IMG/VR virus record: IMGVR_UViG_3300026183_000018
Span: 1-36,087 of that record
Origin: a virus
Direction: 5' to 3' (one strand)
Length of the DNA: 36,087 nt
Part shown: positions 1 to 19,874 of the stretch, one piece after another
Position numbering within the stretch: position 1 is the stretch's first letter
Layout: every line of letters begins with the position of its first letter
The notes under the pieces: model-generated
What the model was told of the DNA's origin: nothing
Seen by the model: only the letters and a program-made list of their open reading frames with translations
The model's database searches: none
Made by a program: the position numbers and the translations under genes

Positions 1-591
1 GAAATTAAAAAATATCCTAACTTTGTATGTTCTGTATTGTCTAACTCTTTTATTCGTAAAAGATATCCACACATATTAGAAGACAAGGATATATTGTATG
101 TTGAACATAATATATTAGACTGGTACGAGAACGAAGTAAAGAAACTAGGTAACTTTGACTTTGTACCTGAAAATGATAATAACAATTATAATGTAGTTGT
201 AAAAACACCTAATTATTATGCGTTTAATCACAAGTATCCTGAAATTATGAAAAAATTAGATCATAAGAATACAATGTGGAAAGCATTTAATGGCAGATCA
301 AAAGAATTTACAGATGTTATACAGGCACCTGAAATAGATAGGAAGATGTGTGCTGCTTTTCCTATGGTACCTGTTATTGATTTTGAAAAGAAAGTTATAA
401 TACATTGTAGTAAAAAATTTGCAAATAATACTGAACTATCCAGAATGTTTGAGATGACAAAAGAAAATGTAGATAAGATGATGAATTTTCAATTATTTAA
501 ATACGAAAGTTATTGTAAGACTTGTACTGAATGGGTACAACCTAAAGGTCATTTTCCTATGAGAAAATATGCGAAGTTGTTAAATGACTAA
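1..591 (+). CDS. C-terminal part of a Cys-containing protein, possibly radical-SAM/SPASM-like (5' truncated by window)
   Basis: The reading frame is open from base 1, so the gene begins left of the window; the first in-window start-like codon is an internal TTG at 37 that I do not accept. About 196 residues are visible. The C-terminal third has a single Cys after a short beta-like stretch (VIIHCSKKF) and, some 40 residues later, a CxxC pair (YCKTCTEW). That spacing resembles the end of a SPASM/twitch auxiliary cluster domain of radical SAM enzymes, but the radical SAM CxxxCxxC motif, if any, would lie outside the window. The stop overlaps the start of the carbamoyltransferase by 8 bases, so it is the upstream member of the same operon. 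Function remains tentative; the coding call is firm because the frame is open and co-directional. Confidence 0.6.
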   Translation, partial: EIKKYPNFVCSVLSNSFIRKRYPHILEDKDILYVEHNILDWYENEVKKLGNFDFVPENDNNNYNVVVKTPNYYAFNHKYPEIMKKLDHKNTMWKAFNGRSKEFTDVIQAPEIDRKMCAAFPMVPVIDFEKKVIIHCSKKFANNTELSRMFEMTKENVDKMMNFQLFKYESYCKTCTEWVQPKGHFPMRKYAKLLND

Positions 592-2065
592 AATATTTTC
601 AGTAGCATTAAACTTACACGATCACAATACATATGATGGTGTGTGGCATAATCAAAGAGAAAGACATACTAGATTTAAACATAATTTACCTTATCACGCT
701 GAGGCGTATGCTCATCAATCAGATATATTAAACCCAGCAGATTATCGTTTAAATGAGGAATTTGTAAAAGAATATTTTAAAAAAAGAGATGATGTATTAG
801 CATTTACTTACACTTATGGTGGTATTAGAATGTGTAAAGATATTATACCTAAAGATGTATTTAATTATGTACCAAAAAAACTATGGGATCATTATTATAA
901 AGACAATTTTTATTATATAGACCATCATCAATCTCACGCTACTTACGCCTTTCTTAATTCAGGTTTTAAACAATCTGATATACTAGCAATTGATGGTATA
1001 GGTTCAAAGTATAGATGTGTATTCTTTAATAAAGACCAAAACTTAATAGACTTGTCGGATAAACTACCTATTGGTTGGTTATGGAATCATATGTCTAACT
1101 TGACAGGATTTGGCACATTAGGTGCAAGTAAACTTATGGGCAAAGTAGGATATGGTCAATATAGACAATATTACTATGATGTATTTGAAACAATATTAGA
1201 TGGACCTATTACTGAAAAGAAACAAAAACATTTTAATCATATTGATTTATCTAGTGTAGAAGACTTGGCATTTACATTACAAAAATTTACAATAGACAAG
1301 ATAAAACAATTTGTTTATCCTTTAAAATCTTGTGATAATTTATGTATTGCAGGAGGTGTTGCTTACAACGGATATATGAATGAAGAATTTACTAAACACT
1401 ATAATAATGTATTTGTACCACCAGCAATAGGTGATGAAGGTCAAGCATTAGGAACATATCAACACGCTGACTATGTATTGAATAACAATATACATATAAC
1501 AGAAACATTTGCTGGTAAAGAATATGATTATACAGGAGATGAAAGAGTTAACTACAAAGAAGTATCACAAGCAATTGCCGATGGCAAGACAGTAGGTTGG
1601 TTTCAAGGTAAATCAGAAAGTGGTAATCGTGCATTAGGTAATAGAAGTATATTAGCAGACCCTCGTAATTCTGATATAAAAGATATTATTAATCATACTA
1701 TAAAAATGAGAGAAGACTTTAGACCATTTGCACCTGTTGTATTAGAAGAACACTATAAAGAATACTTTGATACAAATAGTCATAGTCCTTATATGAGTAG
1801 AATATGTAAAGTTAAATCTGATAAGGTACCTGGCATAACGCATATAGATAATACAGCAAGAATACAAACTGTCAATCAAAAACAAAATGGTAAGTTATAT
1901 AATTTAATTAATGAGTTTTATAAGATTACAGGTATACCTATGTTATTAAATACAAGTTTTAATTCTCAGGAACCTATTGTAGAAACACCTGAACAAGCAA
2001 TAAGAACATTTAAAAAAACAGCATTAGATATATTAGTCATTAACGATTGGATAATTAGAAAATGA
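584..2065 (+). CDS. Carbamoyltransferase, NodU/CmcH/TobZ family
   Basis: This family transfers a carbamoyl group from carbamoyl phosphate, through carbamoyl-adenylate, to a hydroxyl on a sugar, antibiotic or, in some viral members, a modified base. Visible signatures are the metal-binding stretch DHHQSHA near residues 113-119 in the N-terminal Kae1-like half, AIDGIG near 135-140, the glycine-rich LCIAGGVAYNG near 253-263, PPAIGDEGQALG near 279-290, and the C-terminal-domain hallmark GNRALGNRSILADPR near 347-361, followed by REDFRPFAP and LLNTSFN. At 493 residues it is somewhat shorter than many family members (about 550-600), but both halves and the key motifs are present, so it looks functional. 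It overlaps the preceding gene by 8 bases and the next by 4, implying coupled translation. The acceptor is unknown; neighbouring glycosyltransferases favour a glycan or glycosylated base. Confidence 0.92.
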   Translation: MTKIFSVALNLHDHNTYDGVWHNQRERHTRFKHNLPYHAEAYAHQSDILNPADYRLNEEFVKEYFKKRDDVLAFTYTYGGIRMCKDIIPKDVFNYVPKKLWDHYYKDNFYYIDHHQSHATYAFLNSGFKQSDILAIDGIGSKYRCVFFNKDQNLIDLSDKLPIGWLWNHMSNLTGFGTLGASKLMGKVGYGQYRQYYYDVFETILDGPITEKKQKHFNHIDLSSVEDLAFTLQKFTIDKIKQFVYPLKSCDNLCIAGGVAYNGYMNEEFTKHYNNVFVPPAIGDEGQALGTYQHADYVLNNNIHITETFAGKEYDYTGDERVNYKEVSQAIADGKTVGWFQGKSESGNRALGNRSILADPRNSDIKDIINHTIKMREDFRPFAPVVLEEHYKEYFDTNSHSPYMSRICKVKSDKVPGITHIDNTARIQTVNQKQNGKLYNLINEFYKITGIPMLLNTSFNSQEPIVETPEQAIRTFKKTALDILVINDWIIRK

Positions 2066-2745
2066 ATTACTTTGATACATTAGAAAAGAAAAGAAATCAC
2101 GTTAAAACTTATAGTGAAAAAATACCTCCTAAAAAGTTAATAGAACAGGCATTATGGAAAGCGTGGAAAACATCTCCTTCAAAAAATAATGCAATGGCAT
2201 ATGAGGTACTTGTATGGGGTCCAGATAAAGAATTAGAAAAGGCAGCTATTCATAGTTTAGTTGTAAAAAATCACAAACACGCTGAAGATAGGGCTGTTGA
2301 AAAAAAGTTAATGAATAAAACTCAAGAAGGTGTTCCTAATCCATATTATGAACATATAAAATTAAATCCATATTTAATTACAATACATAGTAGAATAGCA
2401 TACCCGAATCGTTTTTATAAAGAACAAGTTGAACAAGGACATTTTTACGACCAATCACATAATCCTGAAGATATAATAGATTCAGTAGCAGTTGAAGTAG
2501 GTTTGTTTGTAGGTAATTTAGGATATTATTTACTAGAAGAAGGATTAGATATATCTTACAACTCTTGTTTTAAAAGAGAAGTTAAAGATTGGCATAATGT
2601 AGGATTACATATGGTTGAACAAAGACCTATAACAATGTTAAGTTGTGGTTATGCTGAAAGATATAGAAGACAAGATTTGATAGATAGAAAAAAAGAAAGT
2701 TGGGATTTAAAACCAGAAATAAATGAGATAGTAAAATGGATATAA
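2062..2745 (+). CDS. Nitroreductase-like flavoprotein (copy 1)
   Basis: A 227-residue protein with the layout of the FMN-dependent nitroreductase fold. The early motif TSPSKNNAMAYEVLV (about 37-51) corresponds to the family's APS-x-x-N-x-QPW-x-F flavin-binding segment, and the later VEVGLFVGNLGYYLLEEGLDISYNS-type region (about 144-168) corresponds to the helix in which nitroreductases show an aliphatic, Ala/Gly-rich run before a Gly-Leu turn. Members reduce nitro compounds, quinones, flavins or enone-type substrates with NAD(P)H. The start ATG overlaps the carbamoyltransferase stop (ATGA-type overlap), and the C-terminus overlaps the methyltransferase start by 10 bases. A second, longer relative lies at 4976-5878. 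The substrate cannot be read from sequence, and the family call rests on motif resemblance only. Confidence 0.65.
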   Translation: MNYFDTLEKKRNHVKTYSEKIPPKKLIEQALWKAWKTSPSKNNAMAYEVLVWGPDKELEKAAIHSLVVKNHKHAEDRAVEKKLMNKTQEGVPNPYYEHIKLNPYLITIHSRIAYPNRFYKEQVEQGHFYDQSHNPEDIIDSVAVEVGLFVGNLGYYLLEEGLDISYNSCFKREVKDWHNVGLHMVEQRPITMLSCGYAERYRRQDLIDRKKESWDLKPEINEIVKWI

Positions 2746-3407
2746 AATTATTACAAACGATATTGGATAACTTAATCTCTCCTTCAATGAGGGATGCTGT
2801 TAATAATCCTAGTGATGAAAGAGGAACTAATAGAGTTTCGGAAGAACAAGATTTATTAGATTCATTTAGTCCTATGCAATTTAAATCTAAACTTAAATTA
2901 GTAGAACACATAGATAAATTAAATATTCTAACAAAAGATTCTGAAATAGTAATATTTGGTTGTTGGTATGGTAGTATTTTAATACCAGCATTTTATAATA
3001 AAGTTAAAAAGATTACTGCTATTGATATGGACCCTAAAGTTATTAGTATTGCAAAATATAAATTGTTTAAAGATTTAGATGTTGATTTTATAACTGGTGA
3101 TGTATTTGAAAAGTATAGAGACCAGTACACAAGTTGCGATTTGTTTATCAATACTTCTTGCGAACATATGAAATCTATGAAACAATGGGGACCAGCACCA
3201 ACTTATAAAAATCCTTGGTGGGATAGAGTATCACCAGCTTATTTCGCCTTTCAATCTAATAATATGTATGATATAGAAGGACATATCAATTGTGTATCAT
3301 CAATAGAGGAATTTAAATATCAAATGCCAGATAAAGCAGAAATATTAGTTGAAGATAAAATTGTTGATGATAGAGGAACTAGATTTATGTTAATAGGTAA
3401 ATTATGA
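2736..3407 (+). CDS. SAM-dependent methyltransferase-like protein (class I Rossmann fold)
   Basis: A 223-residue protein whose central part reads as a class I methyltransferase: motif I is VIFGCWYGS (about 72-80) after a beta strand, then the acidic end of strand 2 is ITAIDMDP (about 93-100), the usual SAM ribose contact, followed by VDFITGDVFE (motif III region) and CDLFINTSCEH at the motif IV position. Motif I has Cys and Trp inside the glycine loop, which is unusual, so cofactor use should not be assumed. No target-recognition domain of a DNA methylase is seen, so a small-molecule or sugar substrate is more likely. It overlaps genes on both sides (10 and 4 bases), placing it in the same transcription unit as the carbamoyltransferase and glycosyltransferases. 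Confidence 0.68.
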   Translation: MDIKLLQTILDNLISPSMRDAVNNPSDERGTNRVSEEQDLLDSFSPMQFKSKLKLVEHIDKLNILTKDSEIVIFGCWYGSILIPAFYNKVKKITAIDMDPKVISIAKYKLFKDLDVDFITGDVFEKYRDQYTSCDLFINTSCEHMKSMKQWGPAPTYKNPWWDRVSPAYFAFQSNNMYDIEGHINCVSSIEEFKYQMPDKAEILVEDKIVDDRGTRFMLIGKL

Positions 3408-4246
3408 AAGTAATTTATAGCGTTTATGTTGATGTGCCGTCTAAAGAACATTATGGTCAATCTAAACAAAGAAATGATACAACAGAAAAGGCAAATATAA
3501 CGGTTAATGCTTTTAAAAAACATTATACAAAATTAGTTGAATCTAAACGCAAATATGCAAATGATATAGGTGCAACTTTTATGATGTTTGGATACGATCT
3601 TCGTTATCAAAGTTTTGAACAGAAATTACTTAAAGTTTGTCCAGACCTAACAGGATATGAAGTTGTAAATTTTTATAAGATACATTTACTTGAAGAGCTA
3701 TCAAAAGACTATAACGAAATATTATATTTAGATTTTGACGCAGTACCTTTGACTAACGAATCTTTTTTTGATCGTTGGGATTTAACAAAAGGCATATGTG
3801 TTTATAATAACAATGCTCAAATTGTAAAAGATAAAGAAGTAAAACATAGTATTAGAAGTCCATCAGCAAAGTATTTTAATTGTCAAGCAATGTTAATAGA
3901 TAAAGGACTAGGTGCTAAAAATGATGTTATTAATACTGGTATCATAGGTGCTTGTAGAGATGATATACTTAAATTAGATTTCTTTGGTGGGTTTAAAGAT
4001 ACAATAGATTTGATGACAAGATTAAGAAGTGATACAAGTTTATATCCTCAAAACATTGTTGATATGTTTAGATATGATAATGAAACAATTTTTTCATACA
4101 AGAGAGAGATTAATCAAGTTAATATACAATGGTTAGATGACAAGTGGCACTATTTTTTAGATACTCAAAACTTTATACCAAAAGAAATAAAGATAGTACA
4201 TTGTGTTTGTAAAGACTTTGATTTAGTTTGGAGAAGATATGCTTAA
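3404..4246 (+). CDS. Putative glycosyltransferase (DxD type), first of three
   Basis: A 280-residue protein with the features of a GT-A glycosyltransferase. The strand-acid motif EILYLDFDAVPLT (about 105-117) contains the D-F-D that in this fold holds the divalent metal and nucleotide sugar. Upstream lies a helix with KIHLLEEL, typical of families that first bind the donor and then place the DxD. C-terminal WLDDKWHYF and KIVHCVCKD resemble the late His-containing segment (IVHFTG-like) of GT8-type enzymes that also contacts the metal. Donor and acceptor are unknown. The ATG overlaps the methyltransferase stop (ATGA) and the end overlaps the next glycosyltransferase by 8 bases. The assignment rests on motif pattern and on having two neighbours of the same style. 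Confidence 0.6.
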   Translation: MKVIYSVYVDVPSKEHYGQSKQRNDTTEKANITVNAFKKHYTKLVESKRKYANDIGATFMMFGYDLRYQSFEQKLLKVCPDLTGYEVVNFYKIHLLEELSKDYNEILYLDFDAVPLTNESFFDRWDLTKGICVYNNNAQIVKDKEVKHSIRSPSAKYFNCQAMLIDKGLGAKNDVINTGIIGACRDDILKLDFFGGFKDTIDLMTRLRSDTSLYPQNIVDMFRYDNETIFSYKREINQVNIQWLDDKWHYFLDTQNFIPKEIKIVHCVCKDFDLVWRRYA

Positions 4247-4976
4247 GATATGTACCGTATATCATAAAGGTTTTTATACACCAGATTATGTATCAAAGTT
4301 ATATAGAAGTTTAAAAAGAAACTCATCTATACCTTTTGAGTTTGTTTGTATAAGTGATACAGATGTTGAGGCAGATGTTGTATTGCCTTATAATCACTAC
4401 GACAAGATTAAAAAACATTGGCATAAATTAAAATATTTTAGTCCTAATTTTGCTTATCAAAAACCTGGAGATGACATTATAGTTATGGATATTGACCAGG
4501 TGATTACGGGCAATGTAGATGACCTTTTAGGTCATCCTGTACAAGATAATGAATTAGTAACTTATGGAATATGGTGGGAATCAAAGTTAAAAACAAATGG
4601 TGGTTTTTATAAGTTTAAATCTGGTAGTTTAAAGTATATATGGGACGACTTTGCTAAAAATCCTGACTATTGGCAATTACATTATTATAATATAGGTGAT
4701 GTACATAATAAATATTACGGAGAACAAAACTATGTTAATTGGAAGATACAGGAATATAAATCTAAATTAAGTAAAACTCCTGAAGAATGGATAGGTAAGT
4801 TTTCAACAGATTATACAGAAAATCTACAATTAAATAAAATGTATTGTAATAAATTTAAAACAGAATATATGATAATGGATAGTGTAAATAAAAATATTAA
4901 AGTTGTTCATTTTACAGGTCCAGGTAAGACTATACACGAACATAATCAATCTTTTATAAAGGAGTATTGGAAGTAA
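4239..4976 (+). CDS. Putative glycosyltransferase (DxD type, GT8-like), second of three
   Basis: A 245-residue protein and the clearest glycosyltransferase of the trio. The N-terminus (MLKICTVYHKGF) is a first beta strand of a GT-A fold, SSIPFEFVCISDTD (about 29-42) is the second strand region, and DIIVMDIDQVITGNVDDLL (about 79-97) carries the D-I-D metal/nucleotide-sugar motif followed by the GNVDDLL segment typical of GT8-like enzymes. The C-terminal IKVVHFTGPGKTIHEH has the HFTG-P-K pattern in which His and Lys contact the donor phosphate. It overlaps its left neighbour by 8 bases and shares one base with the ATG of the following gene. Likely cytoplasmic, since no membrane segment is seen. 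Donor and acceptor are unknown. Confidence 0.75.
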   Translation: MLKICTVYHKGFYTPDYVSKLYRSLKRNSSIPFEFVCISDTDVEADVVLPYNHYDKIKKHWHKLKYFSPNFAYQKPGDDIIVMDIDQVITGNVDDLLGHPVQDNELVTYGIWWESKLKTNGGFYKFKSGSLKYIWDDFAKNPDYWQLHYYNIGDVHNKYYGEQNYVNWKIQEYKSKLSKTPEEWIGKFSTDYTENLQLNKMYCNKFKTEYMIMDSVNKNIKVVHFTGPGKTIHEHNQSFIKEYWK

Positions 4977-5878
4977 TGAAAGACAAATGGAGTAATGCTT
5001 GGAAAGATATTGTATCTTTAGGTGAAAATACCGAAATGGGTATTAAAAATATGTTTTATGATTGGAGCGATGAAATGGATGTTATTCGCAAACTTCAAAA
5101 ATGTCAAAGAGTTTGGGATCATTCTAAAAGAGTACACGAAGAAGTTATAGATTATCTTTTATGGACTGCCCAAAATGCACCTTCAAAACAACACGAAGGA
5201 TATTATGATATATACTGGACTGCTGATAGAAAAGTATTAGACGAGTTATCAAAATATACTTGGGGATGTACTCATATTCGTAAACCACCTTCTACTTGGC
5301 AAAACTCACAAATGAATGCTAATCTTTATATTTTATTTGTGGCAAAAGAACCAGATACAAAATTAAATTGCAATGCAGATGGAACCTTAAAAGAAAATTA
5401 TACAGCTGCTCGTTGGGAAAATGCTTATGTAAGTATTGGCATAGCCCTTGGTTTAACTATGAGAGCGGCTGCAAAAATAGGACTTGCTACTGGTTGCAAT
5501 AAAAGTCATAATGATATGAACGGTGATGATTTTTGGGAAAAGAAATTAGGTATATTAGATGAAGTTATTAAAGGTGAAAAGAAAATAACATACGGTATTG
5601 GCATTGGATTTCCTAAAGAAGGAGTTGAACGCTATGAATCAGATCAAACAGAATTAGCAATCGGCGCTGGCAATGGTAGTAATTTAACAACTGAAAATTT
5701 AGATAAACATCCTAGAACAGGTAAACCTTTTAGAAAAATTAAGATAGTTGATATTACAAAACACGCAGGCGAAAAGGTGCAATGTCCTAATGGTGATTGG
5801 CACGATATACCAGAGAAAGCAGATATTAAAATTAATACTATAAGAAAAAGAAATATAGAAATTAAAGAAATAAAATGA
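4976..5878 (+). CDS. Nitroreductase-like flavoprotein (copy 2)
   Basis: A 300-residue protein related in layout to the nitroreductase-like gene at 2062-2745 but longer at both ends. QNAPSKQHEGYYDIYW (about 66-81) matches the flavin-binding APS-K-x segment, and the helix VSIGIALGLTMRAAAKIGLATGC (roughly residues 153-175) matches the Ala-rich helix of the family. I chose the ATG at 4976 rather than a TTG at 4967: an AAAGGAG ribosome-binding sequence at 4958-4964 lies 11 bases before the ATG but only 2 bases before the TTG. The ATG shares one base with the upstream TAA. The C-terminal 60 residues, rich in Lys, lie beyond the usual fold and contain CPNGDWHDIP of unknown role. Two divergent nitroreductase-like proteins in one operon suggest two different reduction steps or a heterodimer; both are inference. 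Confidence 0.65.
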   Translation: MKDKWSNAWKDIVSLGENTEMGIKNMFYDWSDEMDVIRKLQKCQRVWDHSKRVHEEVIDYLLWTAQNAPSKQHEGYYDIYWTADRKVLDELSKYTWGCTHIRKPPSTWQNSQMNANLYILFVAKEPDTKLNCNADGTLKENYTAARWENAYVSIGIALGLTMRAAAKIGLATGCNKSHNDMNGDDFWEKKLGILDEVIKGEKKITYGIGIGFPKEGVERYESDQTELAIGAGNGSNLTTENLDKHPRTGKPFRKIKIVDITKHAGEKVQCPNGDWHDIPEKADIKINTIRKRNIEIKEIK

Positions 5879-6441
5879 GAATAATATGTTGTAAATTTGG
5901 TAACAAGTTTACTGATTGGCACATTAAAAATTTGAAACATATGATAGACACTTATTCAGGTCTAAAGTATGATAGTTTTGAAATAATAGATACTGATTTA
6001 TATGGCAATTGGTATAATAAATTTCAAATGTATGATAAGTTTAGAGATGGAGAAAACTTATACTTTGATTTAGATGTGATTATCTATGATAAATTACCTA
6101 ACTTAATTAGAAAAGATTTTACATTATTAGATGATACTTGGTGGAGAGAACCTGCTCATACACCATTAAACTCTTCCGTTGTATCGTGGACAGGAGATGT
6201 ATCTCACATATGGAAAAAGTTTAAATCAAATGACAAAGAATACCTAAAGAAATATTATAAAGGTAGTGATGAATTTTACTATAAGGAAATAGATTATAAA
6301 ACTTACGATAAAGTTTGTCCTAAATTTAATGCAGAATCATCAGATAAAAATTATAGTATGTGTACACTAGGTCAATTACATCACATAATGGAAGAAGGTT
6401 GGACTGGTTGGTGGACGCCTTATTTTATACCTTATAAATAG
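5875..6441 (+). CDS. Putative glycosyltransferase (DxD type), third of three
   Basis: A 188-residue protein beginning MRIICCKFGNKF with a predicted beta strand, followed by a helix and FEIIDTDLYGNWYNKF. The metal-binding-like ENLYFDLDVIIYDKL (about 60-74) has D-L-D in the same strand context as the DFD and DID of the two genes upstream. The C-terminal SMCTLGQLHHIMEEGWTGWWTPYF region is aromatic-rich, as in acceptor-binding parts of sugar transferases. It is short for a glycosyltransferase (most are 240 residues or more), so it may be a minimal or degenerate catalytic domain. The start overlaps the previous stop by 4 bases. The last codons (tyrosine, lysine, stop) overlap an exact TATAAATA octamer at 6433-6440. 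Confidence 0.52.
   Translation: MRIICCKFGNKFTDWHIKNLKHMIDTYSGLKYDSFEIIDTDLYGNWYNKFQMYDKFRDGENLYFDLDVIIYDKLPNLIRKDFTLLDDTWWREPAHTPLNSSVVSWTGDVSHIWKKFKSNDKEYLKKYYKGSDEFYYKEIDYKTYDKVCPKFNAESSDKNYSMCTLGQLHHIMEEGWTGWWTPYFIPYK
6433..6440 (+). promoter_or_regulatory. TATAAATA late-promoter octamer overlapping a gene end
   Basis: This is an exact match to the T4-type late promoter octamer, overlapping the last codons of the third glycosyltransferase gene. With the T4 geometry (octamer at about -13 to -6) transcription would begin at about 6446, the A of the next ATG. Because TAT-AAA-TAG is also a natural Tyr-Lys-stop ending, chance cannot be excluded. Confidence 0.4.
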
Positions 6442-6793: not shown

Positions 6794-7438
6794 ATGAATG
6801 ATGATGATAAGGCGTTATTGCGTCTAAACACAATGTCTGATTGGATAGAATTTCCAAGTTTTAAAAAAGATAAATTGTTAGAAGAATTAAAACCTTTTGA
6901 GAAAGATTGGAAAAGATATAATTATAATACAAAGAAACCAAACAATCGCTGGGGATTAAGTGTAACTAGTATTGATGGTGGTCTTCACGGCATCCCTGAT
7001 TTATCAAGTTTAAGAGATTGGGAATCACAAACTGGTCAATTAATACACAACCACGAAATAAATGTTCCAACAGATGTTTGGAAACAATGTCCAACACTAC
7101 AAACAATTTTAGAACCTTGGAAGAAATGGTTAGGTCGTTGTCATTTTTTAAGAATGGATAGAGGTAGTTATTTTCCAGAACACTTTGATATTAATAAAGA
7201 AGATTATAGTTATGATGAAGTTAGATTTATAGGATTTGTTAAATGTAATGAATATGACTTTAAATGGATTTATGATGATAAAGTTATAAAAGGAAATAGT
7301 GGTTCTCTTTGGTATTTTAATGGCAATAAAAGACATAGTGTTTTTTCATTTTCAGATGGAATAGTTTTATTAGTTATGTGTTTAAAATTTGATAAAGAGT
7401 TGTTTCAAAAAATGTTGGAATATGGCAGGGTAAAATAA
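6794..7438 (+). CDS. 2OG-Fe(II) oxygenase-like, aspartyl/asparaginyl beta-hydroxylase type
   Basis: A 214-residue protein with a plausible facial triad for non-heme iron. The motif FPEHFD (His130, Asp132) is the H-x-D pair, in a context (RMDRGSYFPEHFDINKE) typical of aspartyl-hydroxylase-like double-stranded beta helices. The third ligand is probably His181 in GNKRHSVFSFSD, followed by a hydrophobic strand. Such enzymes use 2-oxoglutarate and O2 to hydroxylate proteins or small molecules. The start at 6794 has no strong ribosome-binding sequence, and an internal Met at residue 14 is an alternative. The gene ends on the base that begins the TctA-like permease ATG, so the two are translationally coupled. 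The substrate is unknown; a second relative lies at 8703-9188. Confidence 0.7.
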   Translation: MNDDDKALLRLNTMSDWIEFPSFKKDKLLEELKPFEKDWKRYNYNTKKPNNRWGLSVTSIDGGLHGIPDLSSLRDWESQTGQLIHNHEINVPTDVWKQCPTLQTILEPWKKWLGRCHFLRMDRGSYFPEHFDINKEDYSYDEVRFIGFVKCNEYDFKWIYDDKVIKGNSGSLWYFNGNKRHSVFSFSDGIVLLVMCLKFDKELFQKMLEYGRVK

Positions 7439-8706
7439 TGCTTTCTTTATTATGGTGTTTGATTGGAATATTAACAGGTGTTATCTTCGGAATTATACCT
7501 GGTGGAGGACCTTTTTTAGCAATCGCAACATTATATCCTTTACTACTTATTTTAGACCCTTTTAATATATTACTATTTTATATTTCAATCCTTATTACAA
7601 CAAATTATACCAATTCAGTAACAGGTATTCTTTATGGAATACCAGGTGACGCTGCCGCTGTAACTACTGCTAGACACGGACATAATTTATTCTTAAAAGG
7701 AGAAGGACATCTTGCAGTAAGTACCAATGCTATTTCAAGTACAATAGGTTCTATTTTTGCAATATGTTTATTTTTATTGTTTCTTCCTAGTATCTATGAC
7801 ATATTTAAATTTTATAATAGTACAATACAACTTTTTATTATAATATTAGCAATTTTATTATTAACTCTACTATCAAAACAAAAGATGTGGAAAACAATAC
7901 CTCTTTTTATATTTGGTGGAGTATTAGCAAAGATAGGATTTGATAATATTTCATTTAAAACTTGGGGAACATTTGGTATAGATTATTTGACTTTAGGTAT
8001 TCCTTTTAGTGCTGTGATGATTGGATTATATATCATACCTGAATTATTGAAATTTAGAGATATTAAAATTACTAAACAAAAATCAATTAATAAATTTGGT
8101 ATAGCAAAGAGTACATTACCTTCAACAGGTATAGGTAGTTTTGTTGGATTTTGGTGTGGTCTTATTCCAGGAGTAACTAATATTTTAGGAAGTTATTTAA
8201 GTGCTAATTTAGTTAAGACAGATATAAAGAAAATATCAGCAGCAGAATCAGCAAACAATAGTGGTGCGTTAAGTTCTTTATTGCCTTTAATTATACTTGG
8301 CATACCGATTGTAGGTAGTGAGGTATTAATTTATTATTTAATTGTAACTAAAGGTTTTAATTTTGGTGTAGAAACAATGTCTTATTTTACTAATATATTT
8401 TATTACATACCTATTATATTAATAATATGTTTAATATTATCTTGGACTTGTTTTAACTTATTAGGTAAATTAGCAAATCTATATAAGAAACATAAAAATA
8501 CAATTACATATGCTATTGTATTATTCATTTCTATAATGAGTATTTACATTTATCCAGTAAGAGAGTGGATGATAATAACATTATTTGTATTAGGTACAAT
8601 AGGTTATTATTTAAAAAGAGTAGATACTTTTCCGATACTATATGGATTTTTCTTAACAGATTTGTTTTGGGATAATTTAATGAGAGTAATAGTAATACAC
8701 GGATGA
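7438..8706 (+). CDS. tctA: TctA-type permease of a tripartite tricarboxylate transporter
   Basis: A polytopic inner-membrane protein of 422 residues with about ten hydrophobic segments. The N-terminal signature (GILTGVIFGIIPGGGPFLAI, about 10-29) matches the GxxPGxGP loop of TctA, and NSVTGILYGIPGDAAAVTTA (about 59-78) matches the family's S-x-x-x-ILL-x-IPG segment. A half-repeat, GSFVGFWCGLIPGVTNILGS, appears near residues 233-252, as expected for the internal duplication of TctA. In bacteria TctA is the large permease working with TctB, a small membrane subunit, and TctC, a periplasmic binding protein, to import carboxylates using an ion gradient. It is shorter than typical TctA (about 500). 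No tctB is present, but a TctC-like gene lies 1.6 kb away on the other strand. A permease is very unusual cargo for a T4-like phage. Confidence 0.88.
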   Translation: MLSLLWCLIGILTGVIFGIIPGGGPFLAIATLYPLLLILDPFNILLFYISILITTNYTNSVTGILYGIPGDAAAVTTARHGHNLFLKGEGHLAVSTNAISSTIGSIFAICLFLLFLPSIYDIFKFYNSTIQLFIIILAILLLTLLSKQKMWKTIPLFIFGGVLAKIGFDNISFKTWGTFGIDYLTLGIPFSAVMIGLYIIPELLKFRDIKITKQKSINKFGIAKSTLPSTGIGSFVGFWCGLIPGVTNILGSYLSANLVKTDIKKISAAESANNSGALSSLLPLIILGIPIVGSEVLIYYLIVTKGFNFGVETMSYFTNIFYYIPIILIICLILSWTCFNLLGKLANLYKKHKNTITYAIVLFISIMSIYIYPVREWMIITLFVLGTIGYYLKRVDTFPILYGFFLTDLFWDNLMRVIVIHG

Positions 8707-9188
8707 AGTATTGTAAAAAATATAATTTTTCTTGGCCAAAAAATCAAATTGTCAGGTCTTGTTTAGAGGCAAAATATCATAGAGGTGTTGACCGTCATAA
8801 CATACAATGGCCAGTAGATGAAGCACCAGTACCTACAACTTCTTGGAGTGAGGCATTAAGTAATATCACACAATCTCCAATTAGTAGTATGAAATTTTCC
8901 AAAGTACATTGGGGTGGTTTACCTATTCATAGAGACCATAGTAAATTATGTTCATTAAACTTTCCACTTGTAGGTGATTTTAACAATAGCTCAATTATAT
9001 TTGTTGACGATTTTAATGATCCTATTGAAGAATTTAGTGGCGAAGAAGTTTACTTAATAAACACCAGACAACTTCACGGTGTTAAAAATAAAACAGATAT
9101 AGATAGAATTACACTTACAATAGGATTTGATAGACCATTTGACACTATTAAAGGAAAACTAAATGAAAAATTTAATACTAGGATATAA
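8703..9188 (+). CDS. 2OG-Fe(II) oxygenase-like small protein
   Basis: A 161-residue protein with a compact double-stranded beta-helix pattern. GLPIHRDHSK (about 72-81) supplies an H-x-D pair (His76, Asp78), INTRQLHGVKN (about 119-129) supplies the distal His125, and DRITLTIGF (about 134-142) supplies Arg135 on the last strand, where 2-oxoglutarate is normally held. Phe/Leu strands between them (SLNFPLVGDF, SSIIFVDDF) fit a jelly roll. Its target is unknown; position beside a permease and an ATP-grasp enzyme suggests small-molecule or peptide modification, which is inference. The ATG overlaps the permease stop by 4 bases, and its own end overlaps the next gene by 26 bases, an operon arrangement with strong coupling. 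Confidence 0.66.
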   Translation: MKYCKKYNFSWPKNQIVRSCLEAKYHRGVDRHNIQWPVDEAPVPTTSWSEALSNITQSPISSMKFSKVHWGGLPIHRDHSKLCSLNFPLVGDFNNSSIIFVDDFNDPIEEFSGEEVYLINTRQLHGVKNKTDIDRITLTIGFDRPFDTIKGKLNEKFNTRI

Positions 9189-10338
9189 TAGAGGAAAAAA
9201 CAAATGGCAATGTCTTCAAAGAGCATTGAAAAATTGTGATGTATTTATTGAAGACTTTGATAAGATCAAAGGACCCTATGATAGAATTTATACGGTTGCA
9301 GAAAGTCTATTACCTTTACAAGTAAAATTAGAGAAAAAATGGGGAATAAAAAATTTATCAGAAAAAGCAGCAGATATTTTATCTGATAAGAAAAAGTTTG
9401 ATGATTTTTGTATTAATATAGGTCTTCAAAGTTTAATACCACATAATATTATTCCTACAAATCCAGATCATTTAGATTATTGGAAAGATAAACCTTTTAT
9501 AGTAAAACCTGTTGTTGGTTCAGGCAGTAAACCTGGGGGTTTAAATTATATTTCTTTTAAAAATAAGAAAGAGTTTTTATCATATTGTTTAAATAATAAA
9601 GTATCTGATTTTTTTACTAATAATGAAAAGGGTTGGGAAGACCCAGCATTTAATAATCGTATTAATCGTTATATAGTGCAAGATCAACTTCCTACTAAAT
9701 CTGAAATTTGGGGTCCATATTATTATGTAAATGATAGTGGAGTTATAAAAGATTTATTATGGGTAAAAGGTGAGGTTTGGTATAATCAAATAGACAAATA
9801 TAGATATGAAACTAAATTATCTCAATGGATGAGTTTTGATGAGAAAGATGTACCAGATGATATTAAATTATATGCTGATCGTTTTTACAATAAAGTAATT
9901 AATAATCTACAATTAAAAAATATGTTTTTTTCTGGACCTGATTTTTACAAGTGGGATAATAATATTAAGATGATAGATTGTAATCCAAGAATAGGTCAAG
10001 GTTTACAACAAATGGATGATGTACATAACAATACAATAGTTTCAAAAATTTTAAATAATGAACCGTACTCTTTTAACAAACAAATCTTATGGAAAATTTC
10101 TAAATTAAAACCAGGTAAGATAAAATCTGTAAAAGATATATCTCACTTAAAAAAATATTGGGTTAAAACTAATAATGATAGATTAAAACGTGGAGAAACT
10201 ATATTAGAATATACTCATATAACTTCAGAAAGAGTTCCTAGAATTTCTTTTTTAATAACTGGCACTAACGAATCCGATATGTTAAAAACATATCAGACCG
10301 TTAATGACCAACTTCAAAATTGTATTGAATATTATTAA
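9163..10338 (+). CDS. ATP-grasp-like ligase
   Basis: A 391-residue protein with the hallmarks of the ATP-grasp fold. KPFIVKPVVGSGSKPGG (about 110-126) is the Lys-containing strand followed by the flexible glycine-rich loop over ATP; YIVQDQLP (about 170-177) corresponds to the adenine-binding segment; and the metal-binding end is IKMIDCNPRIGQG (about 268-280), the D-x-N-x-R signature. Such enzymes join a carboxylate to an amine or thiol through an acyl phosphate. The N-terminal 100 residues form a pre-ATP-grasp-like domain, and about 100 residues follow the core. GGAAAA just before the ATG serves as a weak ribosome-binding sequence. Its stop codon overlaps the stop of the convergent TctC-like gene by 3 bases. 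The substrate is unknown; being next to hydroxylase and transport genes is the only hint. Confidence 0.75.
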   Translation: MKNLILGYNRGKNKWQCLQRALKNCDVFIEDFDKIKGPYDRIYTVAESLLPLQVKLEKKWGIKNLSEKAADILSDKKKFDDFCINIGLQSLIPHNIIPTNPDHLDYWKDKPFIVKPVVGSGSKPGGLNYISFKNKKEFLSYCLNNKVSDFFTNNEKGWEDPAFNNRINRYIVQDQLPTKSEIWGPYYYVNDSGVIKDLLWVKGEVWYNQIDKYRYETKLSQWMSFDEKDVPDDIKLYADRFYNKVINNLQLKNMFFSGPDFYKWDNNIKMIDCNPRIGQGLQQMDDVHNNTIVSKILNNEPYSFNKQILWKISKLKPGKIKSVKDISHLKKYWVKTNNDRLKRGETILEYTHITSERVPRISFLITGTNESDMLKTYQTVNDQLQNCIEYY

Positions 10339-11117
10339 TTAGTGTTTAGTACAATAGCAGAGTTCACTTTATTAACTAGTGAATCTTTATTACCATTATC
10401 TAAAACATAAGTAGCCGATCCTGCAAATGCAGTTTGCCACGCTTCAGTAGTTATTAAATCTTTAACAACTTTTCTGAAATTTTCAACTGTTCCATTTTCA
10501 GCATTAACTGATAATAGTACATCAACAAAAGCAAAATCTAAATCACCATTAGCACTAAAAGCAATACAATTGCCGTCTGCTTCTACTTTAGATTGTTTAG
10601 TTTGAATTGTAAAAATTGTATCAGCGTCTTTGCCTAGATAACCTCTAACTGTATCTCCACTTCCACCGTATGGTACGATTTCAAATGTAGTGTTATTTGA
10701 TTTACCTAAATTTTCAATAAACTTACTAACAGCAGGAGATTCTCCCCAGGTTGCAACTTTAATAGTCTTACCACTCATATCAGATAATGAATTAAAAGTA
10801 CGACTACAAAGTATAGTTTCGTATGCTGTAACAGCAACGATTGTACTTGCGTCTATTGTTACCGATGGCAATGATTCATCACCAGGCCATTCTGTACTCC
10901 ACATAGTCAAAACATTACCTTTATCAAAGTGTGTTTCTGCTATAATGGGATTGTTTGCTTGTATAAATTTATGATTGTTTAGTTTATCTCCAATCATAGT
11001 TAAAATTTGATGAAATGCACCAGAATCACTTCCTGCATTTACTATTGTTGCTGATCCACCAGCGATTGCTGTATGAGACCATAATAACATCATAATTGTG
11101 ATTATATATTTTTTCAT
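10335..11117 (-). CDS. tctC: TctC/Bug-type periplasmic solute-binding protein
   Basis: A 260-residue secreted protein. The N-terminus has a type I signal peptide: two Lys, a hydrophobic core, and a probable cut after AIA at residue 19. The mature part shows the two-lobed layout of the TctC/Bug family: a first strand with GSDSGAFHQILTMIGDKL, a middle strand-turn GKTIKVATWGESPAVSKFI, and VPYGGSGDTVRGYLGKDADT, which matches the family's Y-x-G-x-G-x-x-x-x-x-LLGG-x-VD segment. TAXI-type TRAP binding proteins are an alternative. It is shorter than usual (about 300-325). A GAGGAAA ribosome-binding sequence precedes the ATG on the minus strand, and a sigma70-like promoter lies at 11148-11176. It is the only minus-strand gene I accept and probably partners the permease at 7438-8706. 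Confidence 0.8.
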   Translation of the reverse strand: MKKYIITIMMLLWSHTAIAGGSATIVNAGSDSGAFHQILTMIGDKLNNHKFIQANNPIIAETHFDKGNVLTMWSTEWPGDESLPSVTIDASTIVAVTAYETILCSRTFNSLSDMSGKTIKVATWGESPAVSKFIENLGKSNNTTFEIVPYGGSGDTVRGYLGKDADTIFTIQTKQSKVEADGNCIAFSANGDLDFAFVDVLLSVNAENGTVENFRKVVKDLITTEAWQTAFAGSATYVLDNGNKDSLVNKVNSAIVLNTN

Positions 11118-11176: not shown

Positions 11177-11209
11177 TGCTGATTTATGTTATATCTCTTA
11201 TTTATTTCG

Positions 11210-15209: not shown

Positions 15210-18200
15210 ATGGCAGATTTTAAACTAGGTAGACTTAAATTTAAATGGAGAGGTGATTGGACAACCAGCACTGGTTATATAATTGACGATATAGTTAAAT
15301 ACGGTGGTAATTCGTATGTTTGTATAGCAAATCATACATCACCAAACAACGAAAATATTTTTTACACATCTCCTGCAACTTACACAACAAACTGGCAACT
15401 ACACGGTGAATCATTTTACTTTAAAGGTGCCTATGCAGACGCAACTTGGTACAAATTAAACGACCTAGTATCTTATGGTGGTAAACAATACCGAGTTACA
15501 ACTGCTCATACATCTTCAAGTGCAGTTTTAAACCAATCAAACTTTGAACAATATTCAGACGGTATCACTTTTAGAGGTGATTACGCTGATTCAACTCAAT
15601 ACAGATTAAACGACCTAGTTAAGTATGGGGGAAGAACATACAGAGTCACTACTGAACACACATCAGCTTCTGGTGGTGATATTAATATAGATTTAGCAAA
15701 CTTTTCACTTTATAGTGAAGGTTTAGCATTTAGAGGCGATTGGGCTGCAACAACTTATTACAGATTAGATGATATTGTAAAATTTGGTTCTTACCAATAC
15801 AGATGTACAACTGCTCACACTTCAGGTGCAACAACAGATGATTTCGCTCAGGCAAACTTTTCTATTTATTCTGAAGGATTACAATTTGAAGATTCATACA
15901 ACGCAGGTACGGTTTACTCAAAAGGTGATGTCGTAACTCACGGTGGATATTCTTATGTGTATATTAATGATGAAGAAGCTGCAGGACAAACTCCTGCTGA
16001 CAATTCATATTGGGATGTAGTAACAACTGGATTTAATGCCGAAGGTGTATATGCTCACGGAACAACATACAAAACTGGTGATACAATTCAGTATGGTGGT
16101 AATTCTTACGTATGTATTTTAGACGCAACTAATCAAAGACCTTCTAATACAGACGGAACTGTAAATTCAACTTATTGGAAACAAGTAGTTGGTGGATTTA
16201 ATTGGAGAGGTACTTATGACGCTTCTACAGCATACAATATAGGTGATGTAGTTAGATATTCTTCAAATTCATACATACAATTAAAAGATCAACAAACAAA
16301 TATTACTCCTGGTTCAGACGCAACTGTTTGGACAATTCTTGCTCAAGGAGATACTGCCGCTGTATTAACTACACGAGGAGATTTATTATTTGAAAGTTCA
16401 GGTGGTGTATCTAGGTTACCTATTGGTATGCCTGGTTCAGTTTTAACAACTGATGGACTAGATGTAAAATGGAGTGGTATATCAGGTAAAAACGTATTAT
16501 GGGTTTCTCCAAGTGGTTCAGATGATAACCCAGGTTCAGAATCATTACCTTATAAAACAATTCAATATGCTGCTACAAGAGCAAAAATAAATTCAGTAAG
16601 AGAAGTAAATAACGTATCTGGTGGTACTGGTGGTACTGCTAATGTTTACAATGATGTTAAGGCAGTTGCTTATAAAGAAGTTACAGTTGTTTCTGTTCCT
16701 ACAACTACTCAATTAACAGTAAATATAGGATATTCAACCGATACACATACTTATGTTAGTGGTGGAGAAATTAAAAAATCAGATAACTCAAATTTATCAG
16801 TTACAACCGCACCTTACAACCACGTAACAGGTGTAGTTACAATTACAACTTCAGGTGTTCACGGATTATCTATTAATGATACTATAAGATTAAGAGGATT
16901 AGATTACACTCTTACAAGTGGTGCAGAAACAACTTTACCTTCTGTTGGTGCTGACACTTTCTTTAGAGTAGATACAACAGGTGTTTCTACGACAGTAGAT
17001 ATTCAAAACGGTACACACGATCATAATGTAGATGATAAACTATACATTGATGGATCACTAATCGGTAATGCAACTGTTCCATTAACAATGGATGTTAAAT
17101 CTGTTGCTGGAGATATATTAAGAATTAAAAACGGAACATATTCAGAAATTTTACCTTTAAGAATTAGAGCAGGTGTTTCTGTAATGGGAGAAACTTTAAG
17201 AAATACAAAAGTAACTCCTGCAACTGGTTCAGGTACACAAATTAAAACAGTTAAAATAATTAACAAACCAAGTTCAGGTGTAACAAACGGAGATTACAAA
17301 TATATTCACTCTAGTAAAGTTGAAAAATCTTATGTTGTTGCAAGTGTACCAGACTCAACAAATTTTACTGCTAACATTGGTACATCATCTTTAGTACACA
17401 CATATAAAAGAGGTGGTAAAGTTACAAATGCTGCTTTTGGATCATTTACAATATCAAATGTAGCATATGACAATGTAACAGGTATTGCAACTATAACTAC
17501 TACTGGTGCTCACGGATTTTCAGTTAGTGATGCTGTAAAAATAACTGGTATGGATTTCAGTACACACGAAGGAACATTAACTCTTCCAAATGTAGGATCA
17601 GGTGCAGTATTCAGTTTACATAACGCAGGTGGTACTTGTGTTGAAATTAATACATATCACGGTGGTGCAGGATTTAGTGTTGGTGATATAATCACTTTAT
17701 CATCAGCAAATATTGGTGGTAGTGGAGATATGACTTTAGAAGTTACTTCTTTAGAAGATAATAATGCTTCTCATATGTTCCTATGTAATGACGCAAACAA
17801 TATTAGAAACTTTACATTTACAGGTTTAACTGGCACAAAACGTGCTGGTGCTTTATATGAGGTAACTGTAACAAGTGCTAATTCATTTACAGTTCCTACT
17901 GCCATAGAAGATTTAGCACACACTTATGTTAGTGGTGGTAATGTTATTGTTGAAGGTGCAGAATCAGTTAATGTTAGTGTTTCTAATTATGATTATGCTC
18001 ACGCAGCTGGACAAATAACAGTTAACACAAACTCAAATCACGGATTAACAACAGGTGATTTTGTAACTCTAGGAAAAGCAAAATTCAATATTACAGATGT
18101 AGGTGAAAGAGTATTACCTAAAGGTGTTATAATGGCTGCAGTAATATCATTAGACCCTAATGGAAATATCAGAACCGCTTCTCCATACATACAAAACTGT

Positions 18201-19874
18201 ACATCAGCAAATACTGGTGCTTGTGGTATGCAGATTGATGGTAACTTACATAAGAAAACATTCCCCAATTCAAACAAATCAATTTTAGGAAATGACTTTA
18301 CACAAATCAACTCCGACGGTATGGGTATTCATATCTTAGGAAATGGTCGTTGTGAGGCAGTATCAGTTTTCGTTTACTATGCAGAAAAAGCTATTTACGC
18401 TGAATCAGGTGGATTTATTAGAGGACTAAACTGTTCACACGCATACGGAGAACAGGCTTGTGTTGCAGAAGGTACGGATGAAGATGAGATACCAGTAAAT
18501 ATTCAAACTAGAGGTTTAATGTTGAAATACAATGCCGCTGCTATCTTAGGTGGTGCAACGGTTTCAGATATTGAAAATATGATTTCAGTACAAGGACAAG
18601 GAACTGCTACAATTCAGGGAGCTACTTCAGGTGCAACTGCTACAATATTCAGATTTAATACGTCATTAGCATATTTACATATAGAAAACATAAGTGGTAA
18701 TTTTCAAAACGGAGAAATTTGTACAATTGAAAAAGAAGATTCTTCTACTTTTCAAATTACTTTAGATGGTAGTTTTGGTTCACCTGCTCAACAAGGTCAA
18801 AGAGGACCATTACTTGCAGTTAAATCAGGAACAACAGCTTTAAATGCACAAAATATACTTAAACTTGCTTCAAATGTTAAGATGGCAGGTGATACAAAGT
18901 ATTACAGAATTGGGTTAGTATCTGAAGAAGATACAACAAACGGAACAGCAGTAATCAGATTAACGGAAGATATAGGAACAAGTAAGGCAAAAGGTGATGG
19001 TATATCAACAGATGTATCAAGTGGTTTCTCAAACATTCGTTTAACTGGACACGATTTCTTAAATATCGGTACTGGTGGTTTTGTAACTACAAACTATCCA
19101 AATATACCTACTCAACCTGCTGACCAAGATGATGAAATTATTGAAAATGATGGTGGTAGAATTTATTGGGTATCAACTGACCAACAAGGTGACTTTAGAG
19201 TTGGTGATCTATTCAAAATTGAACAGGCAACTGGTACTGCTACACTAAATGCAGACGCCTTTAACCTTTCAGGATTAAGTGAATTAAAACTTGGATCTAT
19301 CGGTGCAGAATTAGGTGCCGCTATTAACGAATTTAGTACAGACGAAACCTTAGGTGGTAATTCAAACAATGCTGTACCTACTGAAAATGCTGTATTAGGA
19401 TATTTAACAAGAGATAATGCAGGCGTTGGTGCTTGGGTTCCACCAACAGGAACAACAGCTCAAAGACCAGTCGGTGGTCTTTTATACGCAGGTGCTATAA
19501 GATACAATACATCTCTAGTTGCTTGGGAAGGTTATAACGGATCAAGTTGGACAGGTTTAGGTGGTGGTACACCATACGTAACTGTTGTTGGAGATGGTTC
19601 TACGGTAATTGTTTCTGAAAGTAATCAAAGATTTTTAGTTAATACTGCTGCCGCTGAATGTACAATACAATTACCTGGTTCACCATTAACTGGAGACTCT
19701 GTAACATTTTTAGACTTAAACGGAACATTTTCAACAAATAAATTAACAGTTGATAGAAACGGAAACGATATTATGAACCTTGCAGAAAATTTAACTGCCG
19801 AAACAGATCACGCAGCCTTTACACTAGTATATACTGGTGCAACTAACGGTTGGAAATTATTAGAGGTTGCTTAA
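15210..19874 (+). CDS. Giant modular tail fibre / VrlC-like virion protein (1554 residues)
   Basis: The largest gene in the window. Residues about 10-385 hold seven tandem ~50-residue modules of carbohydrate-binding-like type, each with W/F-R/K-G-x-W/Y, a Y-x-x-x-D-x-V-x-Y/F-G-G core and an aromatic end. A linker (TTRGDLLFESSGGVSRLPIG) leads to VSPSGSDDNPGSESLPYKTI near residue 430, the usual opening of a pectate-lyase-like beta-helix. That helix is interrupted by three diverged ~100-residue repeats (about 480-960), then continues with SPYIQNC, GMGIHILGNG and IYAESGGFI rungs to about 1100. The C-terminus contains ENDGGRIYWVSTDQQGDFRV and a tip domain. AGGGAAA precedes the ATG. Likely roles are host glycan binding and possibly glycan cleavage; catalytic residues are not evident. 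Large VrlC-like proteins occur in cyanophages of this group. Confidence 0.82.
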   Translation: MADFKLGRLKFKWRGDWTTSTGYIIDDIVKYGGNSYVCIANHTSPNNENIFYTSPATYTTNWQLHGESFYFKGAYADATWYKLNDLVSYGGKQYRVTTAHTSSSAVLNQSNFEQYSDGITFRGDYADSTQYRLNDLVKYGGRTYRVTTEHTSASGGDINIDLANFSLYSEGLAFRGDWAATTYYRLDDIVKFGSYQYRCTTAHTSGATTDDFAQANFSIYSEGLQFEDSYNAGTVYSKGDVVTHGGYSYVYINDEEAAGQTPADNSYWDVVTTGFNAEGVYAHGTTYKTGDTIQYGGNSYVCILDATNQRPSNTDGTVNSTYWKQVVGGFNWRGTYDASTAYNIGDVVRYSSNSYIQLKDQQTNITPGSDATVWTILAQGDTAAVLTTRGDLLFESSGGVSRLPIGMPGSVLTTDGLDVKWSGISGKNVLWVSPSGSDDNPGSESLPYKTIQYAATRAKINSVREVNNVSGGTGGTANVYNDVKAVAYKEVTVVSVPTTTQLTVNIGYSTDTHTYVSGGEIKKSDNSNLSVTTAPYNHVTGVVTITTSGVHGLSINDTIRLRGLDYTLTSGAETTLPSVGADTFFRVDTTGVSTTVDIQNGTHDHNVDDKLYIDGSLIGNATVPLTMDVKSVAGDILRIKNGTYSEILPLRIRAGVSVMGETLRNTKVTPATGSGTQIKTVKIINKPSSGVTNGDYKYIHSSKVEKSYVVASVPDSTNFTANIGTSSLVHTYKRGGKVTNAAFGSFTISNVAYDNVTGIATITTTGAHGFSVSDAVKITGMDFSTHEGTLTLPNVGSGAVFSLHNAGGTCVEINTYHGGAGFSVGDIITLSSANIGGSGDMTLEVTSLEDNNASHMFLCNDANNIRNFTFTGLTGTKRAGALYEVTVTSANSFTVPTAIEDLAHTYVSGGNVIVEGAESVNVSVSNYDYAHAAGQITVNTNSNHGLTTGDFVTLGKAKFNITDVGERVLPKGVIMAAVISLDPNGNIRTASPYIQNCTSANTGACGMQIDGNLHKKTFPNSNKSILGNDFTQINSDGMGIHILGNGRCEAVSVFVYYAEKAIYAESGGFIRGLNCSHAYGEQACVAEGTDEDEIPVNIQTRGLMLKYNAAAILGGATVSDIENMISVQGQGTATIQGATSGATATIFRFNTSLAYLHIENISGNFQNGEICTIEKEDSSTFQITLDGSFGSPAQQGQRGPLLAVKSGTTALNAQNILKLASNVKMAGDTKYYRIGLVSEEDTTNGTAVIRLTEDIGTSKAKGDGISTDVSSGFSNIRLTGHDFLNIGTGGFVTTNYPNIPTQPADQDDEIIENDGGRIYWVSTDQQGDFRVGDLFKIEQATGTATLNADAFNLSGLSELKLGSIGAELGAAINEFSTDETLGGNSNNAVPTENAVLGYLTRDNAGVGAWVPPTGTTAQRPVGGLLYAGAIRYNTSLVAWEGYNGSSWTGLGGGTPYVTVVGDGSTVIVSESNQRFLVNTAAAECTIQLPGSPLTGDSVTFLDLNGTFSTNKLTVDRNGNDIMNLAENLTAETDHAAFTLVYTGATNGWKLLEVA
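15237..16365 (+). repeat. Seven tandem carbohydrate-binding-like modules
   Basis: Protein-level repeats of about 50-55 residues in the giant fibre: each has a G-x-W/Y turn, then Y-x-x-x-D-x-V/I-x-Y/F-G-x-x-Y and, in copies 1-4, a terminal HTS. Copies 2-4 are closest to each other (for example YRLNDLVKYGG and YRLDDIVKFG). The fold resembles the small three-stranded ChtBD3/CBM5-12 type by spacing of aromatics. Boundaries are approximate. Confidence 0.72.
16640..18090 (+). repeat. Three diverged ~100-residue repeats inside the giant fibre
   Basis: Three copies share the order Y/E-V-x-V-x-SVP...T-x-NIG...HTYVSGG, then YN/YD-HVTG-x-ITI-x-T-x-GxHGL/F, then a D-x-V/I-x-L/I-x-G/A turn. Copy 1 is at about 16645-16970, copy 2 at about 17300-17630, and copy 3 at about 17850-18085. 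They interrupt a beta-helix-like domain between its first and later rungs, which suggests insertion and amplification of a beta-sandwich module. Confidence 0.62.

Follow-up and report, generated by a model that had tools for sequence, protein, structure and literature searches.

Can a phage carry a tripartite tricarboxylate transporter (TTT) that works with one of its three parts left out? The question is raised by a 36-kb virus fragment of a T4-like phage (IMG/VR record IMGVR_UViG_3300026183_000018; the whole stretch of 36,087 nucleotides is hereafter the window). It encodes a TctA-family permease of 422 amino acids (aa) (tctA, PF01970; 7438-8706, + strand) and a secreted protein of 260 aa that resembles the binding protein TctC in modelled fold and in profile comparison (g14; 10335-11117, - strand). 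We find that the two genes are kept together in related viral contigs and that the small membrane subunit, TctB, is absent from the viral records searched. Together they probably form a two-part importer that works without TctB and depends on the binding protein to deliver a small solute, most plausibly a carboxylate.

The permease and its putative binding protein

The tctA open reading frame (ORF) is intact, and its product is a clear member of PF01970 (E 2.7e-65; score 221 bits, cut-off 28.9; positions 1-415 of the 423-position profile). It contains GIIPGGGP and YGIPGD, the loop and the segment on which a first-pass annotation of this DNA had based its call of a TctA permease, and that call is borne out. 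In TctA, the motif G-Hy3-G-Hy3-G-Hy2-P-G-Hy-G is repeated in transmembrane helices (TM) 1 and 7 (PMC5812351). Both Gly/Pro signatures are kept in the phage protein, as G10-G14-G18-x2-PG and G233-G237-G241-x2-PG; in an alignment of 25 viral TctA sequences G10, G14, G18, P21, G22, G24, G233, G237, G241, P244 and G245 are invariant, with Thr in place of the last Gly in the second copy. The protein has at least eight hydrophobic segments, and no other product of the window is a multi-helix membrane protein. No solved structure matched it by sequence search. Phage TctA forms a single deep clade that is approximately 25% identical to cellular TctA and is separated from it by a very long branch, and its viral relatives are conserved at 52-95% identity (45-95% when those of g14 are included).

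The g14 ORF is likewise open throughout. Its N-terminus, MKKYIITIMMLLWSHTAIA, reads by inspection as a Sec-type signal peptide and is followed by a periplasmic-binding-protein type II domain; also by inspection, the g14 alignment displays a basic start, a hydrophobic stretch and mostly an AxA-like site. The protein contains VPYGGSGDT, and C104 and C184, which are invariant in 33 relatives, could form a disulfide. As the first-pass annotation had noted, both phage proteins are short: TctA has 422 aa versus 501-514 aa in the six nearest cellular TctA, and g14 has 260 aa versus about 320-340 aa for TctC of the same six operons. Ratios of nonsynonymous to synonymous substitution against close relatives are about 0.18-0.33 for TctA and 0.13-0.26 for g14, and both genes are therefore under purifying selection.

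The family of g14 was harder to establish from its sequence. It has no match to PF03401 even at E 1 and no TctC/Bug match in NCBIfam, and sequence searches of Pfam, NCBIfam, PHROGs and PDB returned nothing convincing, the sole Pfam match being PBP_like_2 (E 0.003). An AlphaFold2 (AF2) model built from 25 viral homologues adopts a periplasmic-binding-protein fold with a predicted local distance difference test score (pLDDT) of 71. Its top four Foldseek matches are all of the TctC/Bug family, including Bug27 (the best, E 8e-8), TctC 4X9T and BugE. Rows 1-11 of the VIA comparison also all belong to this family (Z 10.8-11.8; TphC, TctC, TBP, Bug27, 2DVZ, MatC, BugD and AdpC are among its structures there), with other families next at 10.1 and 9.0, and the top five matches in BFVD are proteins of uncultured phages named Bordetella uptake protein or PBP2_Bug_TTT. 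When a profile of 33 g14 relatives was aligned with one of 37 cellular TctC using hhalign, the probability (P) was 92% (E 6.8e-7, 207 columns) and the VPYGGSG segment was paired with the VPF/YkGg segment of TctC; the controls gave 50% for NMT1, 12% for PBP_like_2, 9% for TAXI and at most 1.2% for 20 column-shuffled profiles. Because fold and profile comparisons prefer TctC/Bug while PF03401 fails, we place g14, on its model, nearest to TctC/Bug, as a very divergent protein below the formal family cut-off. The earlier description of g14 as TctC-like thus stands for fold and profile, and not for membership of PF03401.

Co-occurrence of tctA and g14 and the search for TctB

In scans of IMG/VR, members of the TctA clade turned up on at least 80 contigs and g14 on 62. 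We examined 80 TctA loci, comprising 78 viral contigs, partly from duplicate phages, and two loci in a Rhodobacteraceae metagenome-assembled genome (MAG). Where at least 2.7 kb of downstream sequence was available, g14 was present in every case (71/71), and the seven loci without it all have less than 1.6 kb downstream. This linkage holds over divergence down to about 53% identity, and the pairing is therefore not due to chance; co-occurrence in related phage contigs had been named beforehand as a check on the first-pass annotation. Distance matrices of TctA and g14 are correlated as well (r = 0.935 for 32 representatives differing by more than 5% in TctA), with shared phage phylogeny explaining part of this value.

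The pair occurs in three arrangements that also involve g13, a neighboring gene described below. At 28 loci, g14 follows tctA on the same strand 8-20 bp later with nothing between them, and g13 is convergent. Four loci have the order tctA, an FkbM methyltransferase gene, g14 and a convergent g13. At 41 loci, including the window, tctA is followed by g13 and then by g14, convergent on the opposite strand. Relative to the first arrangement the g14-g13 pair has been inverted as a unit in the third, which is why g14 lies on the opposite strand in the window. The tree needs one change of gene order, in either direction, as the very long branch to the cellular outgroup gives no usable root.

Among 50,697 phage records, a set that may lack those closest to the window, no relatives of tctA, g14 or g13 were found save distant TctA matches, which look bacterial or are unannotated fragments. 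A cellular origin of g14 was considered and rejected: 398 Pseudomonadota genomes held no relative except on two phage-type contigs binned in the Rhodobacteraceae MAG (L064 and L065; contigs FZLS01000099 and FZLS01000023). These carry the same phage module and are probably phage contigs inside the MAG bin; their binning is possibly a hint as to the host.

TctB (PF07331) was detected by profile search in 0 of 17 viral records, namely the window and 16 records of 42-257 kb, which may be incomplete. As a control, the same search was above cut-off in 20 of 58 alphaproteobacterial genomes, a sample with many small genomes that lack TctB. The 28 adjacent loci leave no room for tctB between tctA and g14. 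The first-pass annotation, which had described the set as lacking TctB, was correct in this respect. It had offered two explanations, a reduced two-part system and the borrowing of a host subunit; the former is favored over the latter because a tctA-tctC pair spaced by 8-20 bp is conserved and TctB is found in none of the 17 records.

A sister clade with a receptor gene, and the wider module

In the same-strand clade (TctA 52-58% identical), tctA is preceded at 18 loci by a gene for a TonB-dependent receptor, which runs up to or into the start of tctA (in L125 it stops 2 bp short). The receptor most resembles BtuB (TIGR01779, E 3e-52, with 178 bits far below the 600-bit cut-off; BtuB in PDB, E about 1e-29). 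A gene for a DUF6580 membrane protein overlaps the receptor start in 10 of the 18 loci, while L128 has DUF6580 without the receptor and the other eight of the 18 have the BtuB-like gene without DUF6580. In L112-L118, L126, L127 and L137, an apparent operon with overlapping or nearly touching ORFs thus reads DUF6580, BtuB-like receptor, TctA and TctC-like protein, from about 2.1 kb upstream to 2.1 kb downstream of the tctA start. Within this one clade, the operon suggests that the phage may encode a whole path for uptake through the outer and the inner membrane. DUF6580 is similar in size to TctB, but was rejected as a substitute for it, given an hhalign P of 0.1% and its presence in 11 loci only; it is above cut-off in 1 of 299 genomes, too few to gauge any association with BtuB in bacteria. 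A B12-binding radical-SAM enzyme (PF02310 and PF04055; KedN5-like C-methyltransferase model, E 9e-50) is encoded a few kb upstream of tctA in 25 sister-clade loci, including L128 (6071-7831) and L133 (4246-6129). Perhaps the importer of this single clade has a link to corrinoids.

Other genes recur beside the pair. Immediately upstream of tctA is g10 (6794-7438, + strand), whose last base overlaps the tctA start and whose product resembles an Asp/Asn beta-hydroxylase by a weak PF05118 match (E 0.045) and, by inspection, an HxD...H metal-ligand pattern. Its homologue in Pelagibacter phage Mosig is annotated as Asp_Arg_Hydrox (32.5% identity, E 2e-23). By neighborhood cluster counts, g10 is found in 71 and g13 in 76 of the 80 loci. 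The first-pass annotation had noted neither of these as part of the set, nor the BtuB-like receptor of the relatives. The g13 gene (9163-10338, + strand) converges on g14, their 3' ends overlapping by four bases. Pfam gives no ATP-grasp match for it; the top Foldseek matches of its AF2 model (pLDDT 91) are ATP-grasp enzymes, the best being the L-amino acid ligase 3VOT (E 1.4e-15), and the model identifies g13 as an ATP-grasp enzyme. A second hydroxylase-like gene, g12 (8703-9188, + strand; weak PF05118 match, E 0.0098), lies between tctA and g13, and is not regarded as a core part because it is located elsewhere or missing in relatives.

Candidate T4-type late-promoter motifs, weak in both cases, are TATAAATA (6433-6440, + strand; pattern scan), upstream of the g9-g10-tctA-g12-g13 run, and AATAAATA (11199-11206, - strand; script scan), about 80 bp upstream of the g14 ATG. 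The pattern scan found 11 motifs, all on the + strand, versus 9.5 expected, a count not above chance.

The terminase large subunit (TerL) of the window is 78% identical to that of Mosig (Kyanoviridae) and 64% identical to that of HTVC008M, which bears out the T4-like label given at first pass. Cellular contamination was rejected as the origin of the window, where the module lies next to tail and terminase genes of T4 type; in many relatives, too, its neighbors include tail-type genes. Upstream of the module in the window (584-6441) is a cluster of genes for a carbamoyltransferase, two nitroreductase-like proteins, a methyltransferase and glycosyltransferases, a region resembling the sugar-modification region of Mosig. 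Elsewhere in the window are a large protein of tail type that carries seven CBM5/12 repeats of the chitin-binding type (15210-19874), another protein whose borderline CBM5/12 match falls narrowly short of the cut-off (21448-22074) and, between tail and neck genes, a heme oxygenase (23954-24616; PF01126, E 2.5e-22); the Mosig heme oxygenase gene adjoins a putative phycocyanobilin:ferredoxin oxidoreductase. Among the relatives, L065 (9989-10954), L096, L097, L099, L101 and L136 encode, upstream of g10, a 321-aa membrane protein that resembles a PiT-type phosphate permease and has no Pfam match; in several of these a porin-like secreted protein is next.

Proposed function, rival explanations and known systems

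Under the two-component reading, the host Sec system would export g14; once in the periplasm, g14 would bind a small solute, most likely a carboxylate, and pass it to phage TctA in the inner membrane; TctA would then import it on an ion gradient without TctB. We infer export, physical interaction, transport and its direction, energy coupling, substrate, timing and host, taking the steps after expression from the protein families and the carboxylate from a family prior. Carboxylate uptake during infection would then be altered, as the first-pass annotation had suggested. Since the importer belongs to a conserved module together with g13 (ATP-grasp ligase) and g10 (Asp/Asn-hydroxylase-like), its substrate may be used in a ligation or a hydroxylation, or import may supply 2-oxoglutarate to the many 2-oxoglutarate oxygenase-like enzymes of the phage. 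As TctB was not found, the pair is not counted as a complete tripartite system, yet it probably works like one. Several observations weigh against this reading. Not only does g14 fail to match PF03401, but its model is of medium confidence and the stretches aligned with TctC show a high root-mean-square deviation. Each of the six nearest cellular TctA belongs to a tctC-tctB-tctA operon, where TctB has 143-179 aa (identified by position, size and hydrophobicity), and the small subunit of TRAP transporters, which is analogous to TctB, is essential (PMC5812351). The correlation of TctA and g14 distances is partly phylogenetic, and the linkage of g13 and g10 may merely reflect a variable gene cluster of the glycan type.

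The standard presence of TctB in the nearest cellular operons, and its occurrence in many alphaproteobacteria (the 20 of 58 above), also speak for a hybrid in which phage TctA and the TctC-like protein join a host TctB and so redirect or boost the host TTT system. Host subunits are often borrowed by phages. We nevertheless regard the hybrid as unlikely: phage TctA is a deep clade at the end of a very long branch, many of the small alphaproteobacterial genomes sampled have no TctB to lend, and TctB is little conserved from one system to the next (PMC5812351), an obstacle to borrowing it from different hosts. A repurposing of TctA, by which permease and secreted protein would take part in infection instead of nutrition (in DNA entry, superinfection exclusion or metabolite export, for example), would fit the tail-fibre genes that adjoin the module and the want of a cellular relative of g14 in the 398 Pseudomonadota genomes, and two methanogenic archaea have been shown to require TctA-like proteins that come without TctB or TctC if they are to take up DNA (PMC10133366). 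We hold repurposing to be improbable: the binding-protein fold of g14, closest to that of TctC, and its strict linkage to TctA fit solute capture, and the overlap of tctA with a TonB-receptor gene in one clade points to uptake.

That same clade could be taken to mean that the importer serves cobalamin-dependent phage enzymes, with B12 or a precursor as its substrate rather than a carboxylate; the overlaps of the DUF6580 and BtuB-like genes with each other and with tctA, the affinity of the receptor to BtuB and the radical-SAM enzyme at 25 loci all lean this way. We give this explanation little credence. In the clade of the window, the receptor and the B12 enzyme are both missing from the neighborhood. 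The known ligands of TctC proteins are small acids and not corrinoids, the receptor is far from the BtuB cut-off, and all such loci belong to one clade and may represent a single event. The alternative that g14 is a type II binding protein of some unrelated kind, with its place beside TctA a frozen accident, would accord with its missing PF03401 match, its weak match to PBP_like_2 and its medium-confidence model; co-occurrence at 71 of 71 loci over three arrangements and about 50% divergence, together with fold and profile results specific to TctC/Bug, largely refutes it and leaves it barely credible. Beyond the two-component importer itself, we can propose only tentatively, and with more doubt than belief, that a self-sufficient TctA-TctC importer, free of TctB, evolved in T4-like marine phages as a core module passed down by inheritance, and that one clade extended it to a complete, phage-encoded trans-envelope route (an operon of BtuB-like receptor, binding protein, permease and DUF6580) that possibly feeds cobalamin-dependent phage enzymes.

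Nutrient genes of phages usually add one enzyme or one binding protein to a host pathway. A permease and a binding protein kept paired through about 50% divergence would mean that a large group of ocean phages related to those of SAR11 installs an import system of its own. Moreover, the need of TTT transport for TctB becomes testable, because evolution appears to have dropped TctB while keeping TctA and TctC paired. TTT systems, TctB-free archaeal TctA, a tctA domain on SUP05 viral contigs and TctC-like proteins in uncultured phages are already known. In the literature searched we found no description of a phage tctA-tctC pair, of a conserved TctB-free pair or of its linkage to a BtuB-like receptor, and papers on pelagimyophages and methylophages do not mention tctA; only two relevant ones name phage tctA alongside auxiliary metabolic genes.

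The SUP05 report likewise placed a tctA domain on marine viral contigs (PMC4164917), but as a domain match alone with its role called unknown, and with no binding protein, module or family. Bug/PBP2_Bug_TTT proteins of uncultured Caudovirales (BFVD, e.g. A0A6J5M1T7) are, like g14, of TctC type and phage-borne; they are about 300 aa long and 12-15% identical to g14, and their linkage to TctA is not shown. Mosig (EXVC030M), the closest isolate by TerL, has a similar tail-fibre and glycan-type neighborhood and a distant g10 homologue, but no match to tctA, g14 or g13. A TonB receptor, of SusC type, has been reported in marine megaphages (PMC9723777). With TctABC (TC 2.A.80; Salmonella TctCBA and the Bordetella Bug proteins), the phage pair shares a permease with both Gly/Pro motifs, a secreted protein nearest to TctC/Bug and the adjacency of their genes; it differs in being phage-borne and without TctB, in proteins that are 15-20% shorter, in a g14 below the PF03401 threshold and in gene order, which is tctA-tctC or inverted rather than the tctC-tctB-tctA of the six nearest cellular operons. 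It shares membership of the TctA family without TctB with the stand-alone archaeal TctA-like proteins (COG1784; Methanococcus MMJJ_13030). These, however, usually have no TctC either (PMC5812351, PMC5898192), whereas phage TctA is always linked to a binding protein.

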